Shown here: positions 3,836-23,404 of the stretch, in pieces | How the letters are laid out: every line of letters starts with the position of its first letter | Numbering within the stretch: position 1 is the first letter of the stretch | Notes under the pieces: generated by a model | What the model was told of the DNA's origin: nothing | The model's input: only the letters and a program-made list of their open reading frames with translations | Database searches by the model: none | Translations under genes and position numbers: made by a program | From: Candidatus Lambdaproteobacteria bacterium | Lineage (GTDB): Bacteria > SAR324 > JACQKK01 | Direction of reading: 5' to 3' | DNA: 36,717 bases | Assembly (NCBI GenBank): GCA_016204605.1 | Contig: JACQKK010000166.1 | Span: forward strand, 1 to 36,717

Positions 3836-5761
<1,926 letters not shown>

Positions 5762-19547: not shown

Positions 19548-19889
19548 TCACCCTCCCGCGCCGCCGCCGCGCCAGGCGATGAGGAGCGCCATCACGCAGC
19601 CGAGCGTCACGCCCAGGGCCAGCCCGACGGCGACGCGGAACAGCGGCGAACGGCGGGTCTCGTTGCGGGGGTACCGCCGGAACAGCCGCCAGAGCGTGAC
19701 GCCGCCGGCCACCGCCAGCGCGAGCGGGACCAGCGGTCCGCCCGGCGCAAGGGAACCGCGCAACGCCACCAGGGTCGCCAGCGCCACGAGCAGCGTCACG
19801 AGCTGCGTCAACCAATGGCGCAGCGTGGCGCCGATATCGGGGTCCATGCCGGCCCGCTCCGGCGGGCGCGGCTGAGGTTGGTCGGTCAT
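19548..19889 (-). CDS. Small membrane protein of unknown function (three helices)
   Basis: The product is 113 residues from ATG 19889. After a Pro-rich cytoplasmic start (MTDQPQPRPPERAG) it has three hydrophobic segments, about residues 22-42, 50-68 and 85-107, and a Gly-rich end. I do not recognise the family. Its ribosome binding site (AAGGA, complement near 19897-19901) lies inside the left 46-bp direct repeat. The ATG is 2 bases from the stop codon encoded by that repeat copy. Without the inserted islet, this gene would directly follow the response regulator with a 2-base gap, so the pair was probably an operon. The frame is open upstream to 19961, but that part comes from the repeat and islet edge. 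Confidence 0.65.
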   Translation of the reverse strand: MTDQPQPRPPERAGMDPDIGATLRHWLTQLVTLLVALATLVALRGSLAPGGPLVPLALAVAGGVTLWRLFRRYPRNETRRSPLFRVAVGLALGVTLGCVMALLIAWRGGGAGG

Positions 19890-19891
19890 CG

Positions 19892-19937
19892 TCAATCCTT
19901 CAGGTCCAGGTCGAACTGCTCGCCTTCGGCGGCGTAC
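19892..19937. repeat. Left 46-bp direct repeat (putative attachment site copy)
   Basis: This copy matches 21838-21883 at 45 of 46 bases. On the - strand it encodes YAAEGEQFDLDLKD plus a stop, the C-terminus of the response regulator, although that gene is now 1.9 kb away. It differs at base 19909 (Leu CTG here, TTG in the other copy). The downstream membrane-protein gene starts just past it. Confidence 0.92.
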
Positions 19938-19941
19938 CTGT

Positions 19942-20442
19942 CTAATTTCCCAACAATCCAAGATCGTCTAGAAGCCTCTTAGCCAAATTGATTCTCTCAC
20001 TTGTTGCTTTTAGCGGCTTTCGTCTCCGCAACTCATCCCAATAATCTTCCCGATAGCCGTTGATTCGCAGGTACTCCGCCGTCGCCGCGAGTTCTAACAC
20101 CAATGCCGAATACTTTTCCATTATCGCCAACGCGTCCTTGCGCCTAGAATTTTCATTTCCCTTTGGTTCCGGAAAGTCCCCCAAAATGCTGAAGGTTGTA
20201 TATGGAATTTCATGGAACCCAGGTTTTTCCGTGCCCTGGATCAATAGAAGCTGTTCTGCATCGTCCGCAGAATTTGCAAGTTGTACGCTGAATGGCCCGA
20301 AATTGTGGTAATCAAACTCAAATCCGAACCCTAAATCTAGACGTTCCAACAGGAACACAGTCTTTTGGAGGCGCGTTTTTCCTATGATTGATCCGCCATT
20401 CAGTTTTACTAACTCAGCTACGTGATTTGCAAGTTCGGTCAT
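19942..20442 (-). CDS. YwgA-like protein, partner of HD phosphohydrolase
   Basis: The product is 166 residues. Its start, with GSIIGKTRLQKTVFLLERL (about 16-34) and then FDYHNFGPFSVQLAN, matches the pattern of Bacillus subtilis YwgA-type proteins and is broadly like SocA/Panacea-type antitoxin domains (G-K-T-x-L-Q-K...Y-x-F-G-P-F-S). By gene naming, ywgA is next to the HD gene ywfO in B. subtilis, so the same pairing recurs here. No enzyme motif is visible, and it may regulate or restrain the HD enzyme (inference). The start overlaps the HD stop (ATGA), with GGAGG 7 bases upstream. Codon use is AT-rich, unlike all neighbours. Confidence 0.7.
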   Translation of the reverse strand: MTELANHVAELVKLNGGSIIGKTRLQKTVFLLERLDLGFGFEFDYHNFGPFSVQLANSADDAEQLLLIQGTEKPGFHEIPYTTFSILGDFPEPKGNENSRRKDALAIMEKYSALVLELAATAEYLRINGYREDYWDELRRRKPLKATSERINLAKRLLDDLGLLGN

Positions 20443-21800
20443 CGGGCAACCTCCATCAGCAGTTTCTCGACAGCGGTGTGTACGGTCTCGTTTCTTACGT
20501 ACACCCGATAGAATCTCCTAATCTTTAGCGCTTCGACTACGGCCGAATATTCGGACACATCACCAAACCGGCCTCCATCGGATGATCTAATCATAACATT
20601 ATTGAGCGCATGTCTGCTTTCATAGTCTTCCGCTTTATATGGAGAGATATTTGGGCCGTCAATCAAGACATCAACGTCAGATAGTTGACCTTCCTTCTTC
20701 GCTTGCGACAATTTACTCTTGAATGATACGAGCTCATGACCACTCAATTTCTCACCAACATCGACACACTTATACAATTTGCGTGTTAACAATCGACTGG
20801 ATAACTCTTGAACAACTTCATTTGGCGCATCTCTCATTAGCGGCAATCCGCCCCAGATACTCGAATCATCTAGTTGCAAGTAATTGGATAACGTTGCGCC
20901 ATCCTTCGAGAAGAACGCAAAAAGTGGACTCGAATTTGGCAACCCGACATCTCCTTCTTTTCCATTTCGCATAAGTTCCGCGACTAATGACAGCAGTCTC
21001 CCTAGCATCTTCTCGGCGGCGCGAGTCGTTTTATGATAATACACCTGCGTGTATAGATGAAAACGGACCAACAAGTACGCTTCTGCCGCCTGCAAGCTTT
21101 TCGCACCAAGAATGAGACCGTCGACAGGTATGAATTCATCTGGTCCGGCATCAGACGCCAGTTGTAGCTTCTCGATTTCCAAATTATTCAACAGCCAACT
21201 CCAATCGAATCCGCCATGTTCTGTGCCAGTCATCTGTTTGTCGCGACGCAGGTAATCGAGACGGTCAGCGTCGAATTGGCTATGTACAATTGCCGAATAG
21301 ATGTCAGTAGGTTCCTGTTTAAGGAGCGATGAAGTCCGTGATTTAACGTCCTCTATCTTATCTGTCGCGGCAGCCAGCAATTTTCCAACTTCCGTATCAC
21401 CTTCAATAATCTCGATCGTCCAGTCCTCGTGTGACTTAGAAATTCCACACGAATTCATCACTCCTTCAAATGTGTGGCTAAATGGACCGTGGCCGATGTC
21501 GTGGAGAAGCGCGGAACAAATCGCGACGTTTGCGGCATTTTCGTTAAAGTGTTCAGGACGTTTGTGCTTTATAATTTGCGCCAACTGTCGAGCTGTATGG
21601 AACACCCCAACACTATGGGAGAACCGCGTATGCGTCGCTCCGGGGTACACAAGTTCTGAAAACCCGAGTTGCTTTATCCTTCGGAGCCTTTGAAATTCGA
21701 CGCAATTTAACAGGTCCCATGCCAATGCGTCGACGATGCTCTTAGGCGAGAACACGATCAGCCCATGCACCGGGTCTCGAATCCTTTGTTCCCTCTCCAT
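20439..21800 (-). CDS. HD-domain phosphohydrolase, SAMHD1/YwfO-like
   Basis: The product is 453 residues from ATG 21800; a GTG at 21809 would add three. It has the layout of SAMHD1-like dNTP triphosphohydrolases: QRLRRIKQLGFSELVYPGA (37-55), the first His in THTRFSHSVGVFH (His62), the HD pair in LLHDIGHGPFSH (His100-Asp101, His104), and the distal Asp in FDADRLDYLRRD (Asp179). It is likely a metal-dependent nucleotide phosphohydrolase; the substrate is not readable from sequence. It is clearly less GC-rich than its surroundings. No good promoter was found in the 37 bases before it, so it probably depends on transcription from the regulator operon. Confidence 0.85.
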   Translation of the reverse strand: MEREQRIRDPVHGLIVFSPKSIVDALAWDLLNCVEFQRLRRIKQLGFSELVYPGATHTRFSHSVGVFHTARQLAQIIKHKRPEHFNENAANVAICSALLHDIGHGPFSHTFEGVMNSCGISKSHEDWTIEIIEGDTEVGKLLAAATDKIEDVKSRTSSLLKQEPTDIYSAIVHSQFDADRLDYLRRDKQMTGTEHGGFDWSWLLNNLEIEKLQLASDAGPDEFIPVDGLILGAKSLQAAEAYLLVRFHLYTQVYYHKTTRAAEKMLGRLLSLVAELMRNGKEGDVGLPNSSPLFAFFSKDGATLSNYLQLDDSSIWGGLPLMRDAPNEVVQELSSRLLTRKLYKCVDVGEKLSGHELVSFKSKLSQAKKEGQLSDVDVLIDGPNISPYKAEDYESRHALNNVMIRSSDGGRFGDVSEYSAVVEALKIRRFYRVYVRNETVHTAVEKLLMEVAR

Positions 21801-21837
21801 AACATGCACTCGGCAAGACTGTTCTTTTTCGGTAGCT

Positions 21838-21883
21838 TCAATCCTTCAGGTCCAAGTCGAACTGCTCGCCTTCGGCGGCGTAC
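21838..21883. repeat. Right 46-bp direct repeat inside the regulator 3' end
   Basis: This is the second copy of the 46-bp repeat (offset 1946 bases from the left one). It is the actual 3' end of the response-regulator gene. Its only difference from the left copy is at 21855, where a Leu codon is TTG rather than CTG. TTG is the less expected choice in a genome this GC-rich, which hints that this copy arrived with the islet. Confidence 0.92.
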
Positions 21884-23343
21884 TCGTTGAGCTTGTTGCG
21901 CAGGGTGCGGATGCTGATGGAGAGCATCTTGGCGGCCTGGGTGCGGTTGCCGCCGGTCTTGCGCAGGGTCTCGAAGATCAGCTTCTTCTCGACCTCGCGC
22001 ATGGACATGCCCACCTGGATGCCGAGGCCGCCCACCGTGGCCGAGCCCGCCGCGCTCGCGGCCCTGGGGGTCGCGGCGGCGGCCGTGGTGGCCGGCATGG
22101 TGCGCGCGGGCTCGGGGCGCGGTTGGGAGAGCGCGCCCGCACCGCCGCCCATCAGCAGGTGCTGGGGCTCGATGGCCTTGGCGTCGCAGAGCAGCAGCGC
22201 GCGCTCCATCACGTTCTCGAGCTCGCGCACGTTGCCGCGCCAGTTGTAGTGGCAGAGCACCTCCATGGCCGGGGCGCCGATGGCGGCCGGCTTGCGGGCG
22301 TTGCGGCGGGCGTGCTTGTTGACGAAGTAGTTGGCCAGCAGCGGGATATCCCCTTTGCGGTCGCGCAGCGGCGGAATCACCAGCGGGATCACGTTCAGGC
22401 GGAAGTAGAGGTCTTCCCGGAACTGCCCCTGCTCGACGCGCTTGAACAGGTCGCGGTTGGTCGTGGCGACCACGCGCACGTCCACGCGGATGGGGTCCTT
22501 GCCGCCGATGCGGTCCACCTCCTGCTCCTGCAAGACGCGCAACAGCTTGGCCTGGAGCGGCAGGGCCATCTCGCTGATCTCGTCGAGCAGCAGCGTGCCG
22601 CCGTTGGCCTGCTCGAAGCGTCCCTTGTGATCCTGCACCGCGCCGGTGAAGGAGCCCTTGCGGTAGCCGAACAGCTCGCTCTCGAGCAGCGTATCGGGCA
22701 GGGCGGCGCAGTTGATGGCGACGAACGGCCCGTCCGCGCGCTCCGAGTGGGCGTGGATGTAGCGCGCCAGCAGCTCCTTGCCCGTGCCGCTCTCGCTCTG
22801 CACGAGCACGGTGGCCTTGCTGCGGGCGATGTTCTGGGACACGCCCAGCAACTGCTGCATGGCGGGATCGGCGGTGATGATCTCCTTCTCGGGCACGGGG
22901 GCTTCGCCCGCGGCGGCCATGGCGCCCGCGGCGGCCGGCTCGGCCGACTTGGGCGGGGCGGCGTGCCTGCGCTCCTCGGCCATGGTCAGCGCCCGCTCGA
23001 CCACGAACGTGAACACGTCGAACTTGAAGGGCTTGAGGATGTAATCGAAGGCGCCGTGCTTCATGGCCTCGACGGCCGTCTCGATGGTGCCGTAGGCCGT
23101 CACCATCAGCACCGGCACCTCGGGCCGGAGCGCCTTGAGGTCCTTCAGCAGCTCGACGCCGCTGCGCTTGGGCATGGTCATGTCGGTGATGACCATGGCG
23201 TAGTTGCCCTTCTTGAACTTGTTGAGCGCGTCGATGGCGTTGTGGGAGGTCTCCACAGGATACCCCACGTGCTTGAGGGTCTCCGACATGGCGATCCGCA
23301 TTTCCACTTCGTCGTCCACGATCAGGATCGGCTGCTGCACCAT
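21838..23343 (-). CDS. Sigma-54-dependent response regulator, NtrC class (FlrC/FleR-like)
   Basis: The 501-residue product has three parts: a receiver domain (Asp10-Asp11, phospho-acceptor Asp54, VTAYG, LKPF), a central AAA+ domain and a Fis-type helix-turn-helix. Walker A reads SESGTGKE, and the sigma-54 contact loop is GSFTGA rather than GAFTGA. The C-terminus (VEKKLIFETLRKTGGNRTQA, SISIRTLRNKLNEY) matches flagellar FlrC/FleR-type regulators, but no flagellar genes are in the window, so the regulon is unknown. ATG 23343 is preceded by AAAGGAGA, which decides the start over a longer frame to 23376. The last 14 codons and stop form the right direct repeat. Confidence 0.93.
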   Translation of the reverse strand: MVQQPILIVDDEVEMRIAMSETLKHVGYPVETSHNAIDALNKFKKGNYAMVITDMTMPKRSGVELLKDLKALRPEVPVLMVTAYGTIETAVEAMKHGAFDYILKPFKFDVFTFVVERALTMAEERRHAAPPKSAEPAAAGAMAAAGEAPVPEKEIITADPAMQQLLGVSQNIARSKATVLVQSESGTGKELLARYIHAHSERADGPFVAINCAALPDTLLESELFGYRKGSFTGAVQDHKGRFEQANGGTLLLDEISEMALPLQAKLLRVLQEQEVDRIGGKDPIRVDVRVVATTNRDLFKRVEQGQFREDLYFRLNVIPLVIPPLRDRKGDIPLLANYFVNKHARRNARKPAAIGAPAMEVLCHYNWRGNVRELENVMERALLLCDAKAIEPQHLLMGGGAGALSQPRPEPARTMPATTAAAATPRAASAAGSATVGGLGIQVGMSMREVEKKLIFETLRKTGGNRTQAAKMLSISIRTLRNKLNEYAAEGEQFDLDLKD

Positions 23344-23404
23344 GACTCTCCTTTGGGGCTCTGCTCGAGCTTCCATGCGTGCGGGGAAAAGGCGGCGGGG
23401 CTCC

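Follow-up and report, generated by a model that had tools for sequence, protein, structure and literature searches.

The anti-phage dGTPase of Shewanella (SpdGTPase, NF041026), a dNTP hydrolase of the HD superfamily, reportedly defends against phage by depleting dNTPs. In the two-gene system Clover (CloA/CloB), an anti-phage HD dNTPase is restrained by a nucleotide signal, and activating cues can switch it (PMC12265719). In DarTG, the C-terminal domain (CTD) of DarG occludes the active site of the toxin DarT, and an ssDNA-mimic mechanism has been reported for it (PMC11481870). Two further genes, ywfO and ywgA of Bacillaceae, encode an HD protein and a small partner; for YwfO-like proteins, a role in nucleotide house-cleaning has been discussed with respect to a minimal genome (PMC4993169), and our literature search found neither an established function for the ywfO-ywgA pair nor any paper on the function of YwgA. 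With regard to mobility, restriction-modification genes have been reported to undergo insertion with long target duplication (Nobusato et al. 2000, as cited in PMC3031569).

The window analyzed here, one whole contig of 36,717 nt from a fragmented genome assembly that is 80% complete, carries on its minus strand at 19942-21800 an HD phosphohydrolase gene followed by the gene of a 166-aa partner, the two overlapping by ATGA as read from the sequence. The features of the locus are as follows.

19548..19889, minus strand: small predicted membrane-protein gene, whose reading frame begins just past the stop codon of the adjacent repeat copy
19892..19937, minus strand: repeat copy beyond the insert, made up of the response-regulator end and stop codon, carrying AAGGA before the ATG at 19889
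19938..21837, no strand: AT-rich insert of 1,900 bp with two genes only, GC 0.47 versus 0.68-0.72 in the flanks
19942..20442, minus strand: partner gene, 166 aa, YwgA-like and resembling a stand-alone DarG CTD
20439..20442, minus strand: ATGA start/stop overlap of 4 nt, read directly
20439..21800, minus strand: HD phosphohydrolase gene, 453 aa, with ATG at 21800 and an in-frame GTG at 21809
21838..21883, minus strand: repeat copy completing the intact response regulator, its sole mismatch synonymous (TTG/CTG, Leu)
21838..23376, minus strand: NtrC-type response regulator gene of the host core, its 3' end being the insertion target; several genomes of the same family have orthologues at 72-76% identity

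A preliminary description of this DNA had the two genes overlapping by ATGA and travelling as sole cargo, and both points hold: the HD gene runs from 21800 to 20439 and the partner gene from 20442 to 19942, and about 98% of the insert is coding, leaving 4 bp between the partner stop codon and one boundary and about 37 bp between the HD start and the opposite one. The flanks consist of core genes for complex I subunits, an XPB-type helicase, FtsE/FtsX, a TPR protein, a histidine kinase and the NtrC-type response regulator. None of the ten large ORFs of the window that were checked is a further defence gene, and the pair in the window is not within a defence island.

The HD protein matched both PF01966 (E=7e-12, 46.1 bits, cut-off 22) and the HD-associated region PF19276 (E=5e-12, 46.1 bits, cut-off 23.1), as well as EF1143 of Enterococcus (PDB 2o6i, E=6e-54); SAMHD1 was also matched by sequence. 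The HD phosphohydrolase identity given in the preliminary description was thereby confirmed. Residues R59, H62, H100, D101, H104, H109, E112, H124, D179 and Y183 are invariant in the paired HD proteins compared (10/10), and the metal-binding H...HD...D and catalytic residues are also kept in core HD proteins. These data indicate that the protein is a phosphohydrolase of the SAMHD1/EF1143/YwfO type with an intact active site, most likely a dNTP triphosphohydrolase. The anti-phage dGTPase shares with it the HD superfamily and dNTP hydrolysis as a known or predicted activity; that identity was nevertheless rejected, as NF041026 matched the HD core alone (27.4 bits versus a cut-off of 400), and the window protein is of the SAMHD1/EF1143 type and has a partner. 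Clover was rejected as well, since models of the dGTPase type fell far below their cut-offs and the window partner is not a nucleotidyltransferase.

Further phylogenetic analysis separated two HD genes of the host. The second one, elsewhere in the genome and GC-rich, groups with its own phylum in a maximum-likelihood tree, whereas the window HD falls in a 100/100 clade with HD proteins of the viral contigs L087, L088 and L118 and of rhizobial/Roseibium plasmids. The window copy thus lies in a viral-contig/plasmid clade far from the core copy of the host, and this placement therefore indicates that it was acquired horizontally.

Close relatives of the partner were found neither with back-translated patterns in the genome and viral collections nor by tblastn against plasmids and phages, and the partner was absent from the 51 other genomes of the host phylum searched. 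Since direct searches found no close relatives, its family was reached via the neighbours of HD genes. In Priestia megaterium, the gene directly downstream of the HD gene encodes YwgA, which aligns with the window partner over 126 aa (BLASTP 25%, E=9e-10) and marks it as a remote relative of YwgA as judged by sequence; the relatedness to the neighbouring ywfO and ywgA genes supposed earlier is borne out by this chromosome, where both families are adjacent.

The same family also leads to DarG. Residues 167-292 of PADLOC DarG match the window partner (E=8e-6), other family members match residues ~160-329 with E-values down to 2e-16, and two members retrieve macro-domain DarG proteins by single-sequence tblastn. 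Upon iteration the family takes in the DarG CTD and one haloarchaeal DUF4065-annotated protein, and the best PDB match of its profile is 7yk3_B, the DarG CTD in the DarTG complex (E=2e-6). An AF2 model of the partner computed from an eight-sequence alignment (pLDDT 90.5, pTM 0.87; a single-sequence prediction of pLDDT 55 was discarded) has the same structure as its best Foldseek PDB match (TM 0.68, probability 1.00), and winged-helix regulators such as PadR gave weaker matches covering part of the fold. The nearest solved relative of the partner is, according to both profile and model, the DarT-binding CTD of DarG rather than Panacea. The Panacea family (DUF4065, PF13274) had been invoked in the preliminary description on the basis of two short motifs. 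These motifs are indeed present (GKTRLQK and YHNFGPFS), and the haloarchaeal relative by profile carries the DUF4065 annotation, but membership was rejected: no Pfam model matched the partner, and Panacea matched neither it nor seven relatives (no match at E<=1 for the window partner, none at E<=0.1 for eight family members).

The resemblance to DarTG thus lies in a sequence profile and fold shared with a domain that binds and blocks its toxin (PMC11481870). In contrast to DarTG, the window pair has neither a macrodomain in its 166-aa partner nor DarT, and the gene beside the partner encodes an HD phosphohydrolase. Acidic DNA mimicry was rejected as a general property of the partner proteins, whose net charges range from -4 to +3; as they are not strongly acidic, the ssDNA-mimic mode of the DarG CTD need not apply to them. 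The host genome (C53) also encodes a genuine DarG, next to whose gene lies a DarT-like one (L074 1486-3190); both are separate from the HD/partner pair.

Some other members of the family differ in context. A 377-aa reading frame in genome G054 (L073 1426-2556) apparently joins the partner domain to extra sequence. On a Haloarcula plasmid, the gene of the DUF4065-annotated relative overlaps a TrmB-family regulator gene (L086 2944-3390), which suggests partner swapping of partner-type domains. Uncharacterized proteins of Sulfolobus ellipsoid virus 1 and SSV4 share the modelled fold of the partner and could possibly be viral antitoxin-like or counter-defence proteins.

A scan of viral contigs with the HD alignment yielded 29 loci, several of which have a homologue of the partner gene adjoining the HD gene; L118 and L122 came from subsequent scans. 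In total, viral or mobile contigs contributed ten HD/partner pairs besides that of the window. The HD gene precedes the partner, as in the window, in nine of these (L118, L122, L088, L087, L091, L093, L094, L111 and L092) and follows it in one (L096). The genes overlap by 4 nt in the window, L087, L091, L093 and L094, by 8 nt in L118, by 13 nt in L122 and by 14 nt in L088 and L111, and L092 has a 20-nt gap instead; overlaps of 4-14 nt therefore occur in eight of the nine same-order pairs beyond the window, the partner of L087 being cut by the contig end. Every member of the HD subclade of the window outside the rhizobial branch is paired, and in all nine loci measured the GC content of the pair is below that of both 1.5-kb flanks, the downstream flank of L118 being only marginally higher. 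The distances among HD proteins and among partners are correlated in ten pairs (Mantel r=0.71, p=0.0003), a correlation that indicates co-inheritance and not binding. These observations support the two genes as a recurrent unit and, in part, the reading of the preliminary description, a candidate defence or toxin-antitoxin-like module in which the small protein would control the HD enzyme.

The preliminary description had called for a search for co-occurrence of the two families and for their proximity to defence genes, and both were found. Tyrosine integrases adjoin the pair in L088 and L091, a terminase in L092, a type I restriction subunit in L094, and TIR and HicA/HicB genes in L122, although this association with integrases, type I restriction, TIR and HicAB comes from a small sample and is not a full enrichment test. 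In L121, a truncated HD gene (3908-4216) has type I (HsdM/HsdS) restriction genes on one side and type IIG/ISP genes on the other, and it is probably the remnant of a decayed gene within a restriction island. The pair is thus not confined to a fixed core-genome arrangement away from defence genes, yet a core pair does exist in Firmicutes: in P. megaterium, ywfO and ywgA lie side by side as a core chromosomal gene order. Its families and their HD-then-partner order agree with those of the window, but a 23-nt gap separates the genes, in contrast to the overlapping, horizontally acquired cassette of the mobile clade in the window.

HD genes also occur alone. Core HD homologues are present in 26 of the 52 genomes of the host phylum, and the partner adjoins none of these ~26 genes. 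In Listeria, an HD gene without ywgA occupies the syntenic place and is followed, as in Priestia, by tautomerase and site-2 protease genes; unpaired HD genes were also found in Melainabacteria and on rhizobial plasmids, the latter being sister to the window HD. Given these unpaired HD genes, the partner is not an obligatory antidote for every HD protein of the family.

On either side of the insert in the window lies one copy of a 46-bp direct repeat (19892-19937 and 21838-21883, 45/46 identical), and the repeat unit coincides exactly with the 3'-terminal 46 nt of the response-regulator gene, stop codon included. The C-terminal coding sequence of this regulator is conserved in same-family genomes. 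Its end is single-copy in the relatives compared, which are of the same family but of other genera and have different genes downstream, and no comparable copy was found in the rest of the host genome. Without the insert, the small membrane-protein gene with its ATG at 19889 would directly follow the response regulator. Both neighbouring genes are intact, because the far repeat copy also keeps the AAGGA before this ATG. We infer that the cassette inserted at the 3' end of the response regulator, in the direction of transcription and with a 46-bp duplication. As the pair is oriented in the same way as the response regulator, read-through transcription is likely, and with both neighbours left intact the pair would probably be transcribed in this manner; no promoter-like site was found upstream of the HD gene on its strand, and the leader fold before it is not special. 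The layout resembles the long target duplications that accompany insertion of restriction-modification genes, as that work is cited in PMC3031569: both combine a compact gene pair with flanking direct copies of a target sequence (putatively duplicated here) and no transposase, but the cargo here is an HD gene and its partner rather than restriction-modification genes.

The repeat may instead represent attL and attR sites left by a site-specific recombinase that acted in trans or has since been lost, a reading that we hold to be possible, though not the one we favour. Attachment sites in gene ends re-create the 3' end of the gene. The repeat restores the end of the response regulator in this way, with one synonymous change, and the related pairs in L088 and L091 adjoin integrases. 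However, the insert consists of the two genes alone, contains no integrase and is too small to accommodate one or further att sequences; the site has no second copy in the host genome; and none of the eight other pairs measured is flanked by a comparable repeat (none longer than 12 nt).

Since a predicted SAMHD1-type dNTPase is coupled to a DarG-CTD-like protein, a restrained dNTP-depleting effector is the simplest reading of the pair, and we put the chances at about even that the two genes constitute a mobile module for defence, or one akin to toxin-antitoxin systems, whose HD enzyme depletes dNTPs and is kept in check by the partner. The HD enzyme would most likely hydrolyze dNTPs, and the translationally coupled partner would most likely bind it directly and hold it inactive. 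Phage infection would probably lift this restraint, through changes in dNTPs or a phage factor, upon which dNTPs would be depleted and phage replication would stall. What the analysis itself shows is the coupling of the genes, the conserved active site, the horizontal origin, the recurrence in mobile contigs, and the homology and fold that the partner shares with the DarG CTD. The pair is most simply read as functionally comparable to Clover: both have two genes, for an HD dNTPase (predicted in the window) and a regulatory partner, and Clover is anti-phage (PMC12265719), but CloB is a nucleotidyltransferase and the window partner has the DarG-CTD fold. More broadly and more tentatively, somewhat short of an even chance, the pair may represent a widespread mobile immune system in which a DarG toxin-binding domain was recruited as an inhibitor of SAMHD1-type dNTPases, linking YwfO-YwgA, DarTG and SAMHD1-like enzymes and moving as an exact cassette with target duplication. 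No experiments on any of these HD/partner pairs were found in the literature. The recurrence of the pair in prophages, next to restriction and toxin genes, points to a candidate anti-phage module undescribed so far.

Coupling and co-divergence do not distinguish an inhibitor from an activator. The partner could be a sensor, activator or substrate-recruiting adaptor, with the HD enzyme inactive until the partner recognizes infection. The tolerance of HD genes without a partner, which then need not be an antidote, the partial resemblance of its fold to winged-helix regulators such as PadR (the weaker matches) and the switching of HD dNTPases by activating cues in Clover (PMC12265719) are all in keeping with such a role. 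We nevertheless regard it as unlikely, given that the closest solved relative of the partner is an inhibitory domain and that overlapping operons of a toxin followed by its antidote would be typical of neutralizing pairs.

Equally improbable in our assessment is a metabolic house-cleaning pair, in which a YwfO-type enzyme would hydrolyze nucleotides together with an accessory protein, the two genes being occasionally transferred between genomes and having no specific anti-phage role. The core ywfO-ywgA pair of Priestia, the core HD homologues in half of the genomes of the phylum (26/52) and the discussion of a YwfO-like enzyme as sanitizing nucleotides in a minimal genome (PMC4993169) would fit this explanation. 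In contrast, the host already has a core HD copy, the window copy falls in a mobile clade, the paired HD genes of viral contigs adjoin integrase, restriction, TIR and HicAB genes, and the core HD genes of the phylum are all unpaired (0/~26).

An assembly artefact, in which a short repeat joined two unrelated contigs of a metagenome assembly, is conceivable in a fragmented and 80% complete genome but very improbable, as host sequence runs on at both sides, the repeat copies differ by one synonymous base, both genes of the pair are intact, and other loci independently show both the HD clade and the gene order.

If the restrained-effector model is true, bacteria would share the antiviral use of SAMHD1-type dNTPases, in a version that brings along a dedicated protein antidote, the uncharacterized YwgA family would gain a first testable function, and the C-terminal fold of DarG would be a re-usable toxin-neutralizing domain. 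Moreover, the module consists of two small genes and is directly assayable in E. coli.

Two other settings of HD genes were observed. On rhizobial and Roseibium plasmids, an HD gene sister to that of the window belongs to a conserved four-gene cassette together with genes for a radical SAM protein, a DEDDh 3'-5' exonuclease and an AAA_28 kinase-like protein (L065 2626-6413, L066 267-3886, L067 2622-6407 and L070 2622-6413); in L065, L067 and L070 it adjoins TcmP, Shedu SduA, or VapC and ABC-three-component genes, and it looks like a candidate defence cassette. In addition, single SAMHD1-like HD genes without a partner occur in the viral contigs L098-L110 and L071, mostly at ~30% GC (~42% in L071 and L110), and the HD gene of L071 (2415-3947, Klebsiella phage ST11-VIM1phi8.3) lies near an integrase in a moron-like position.
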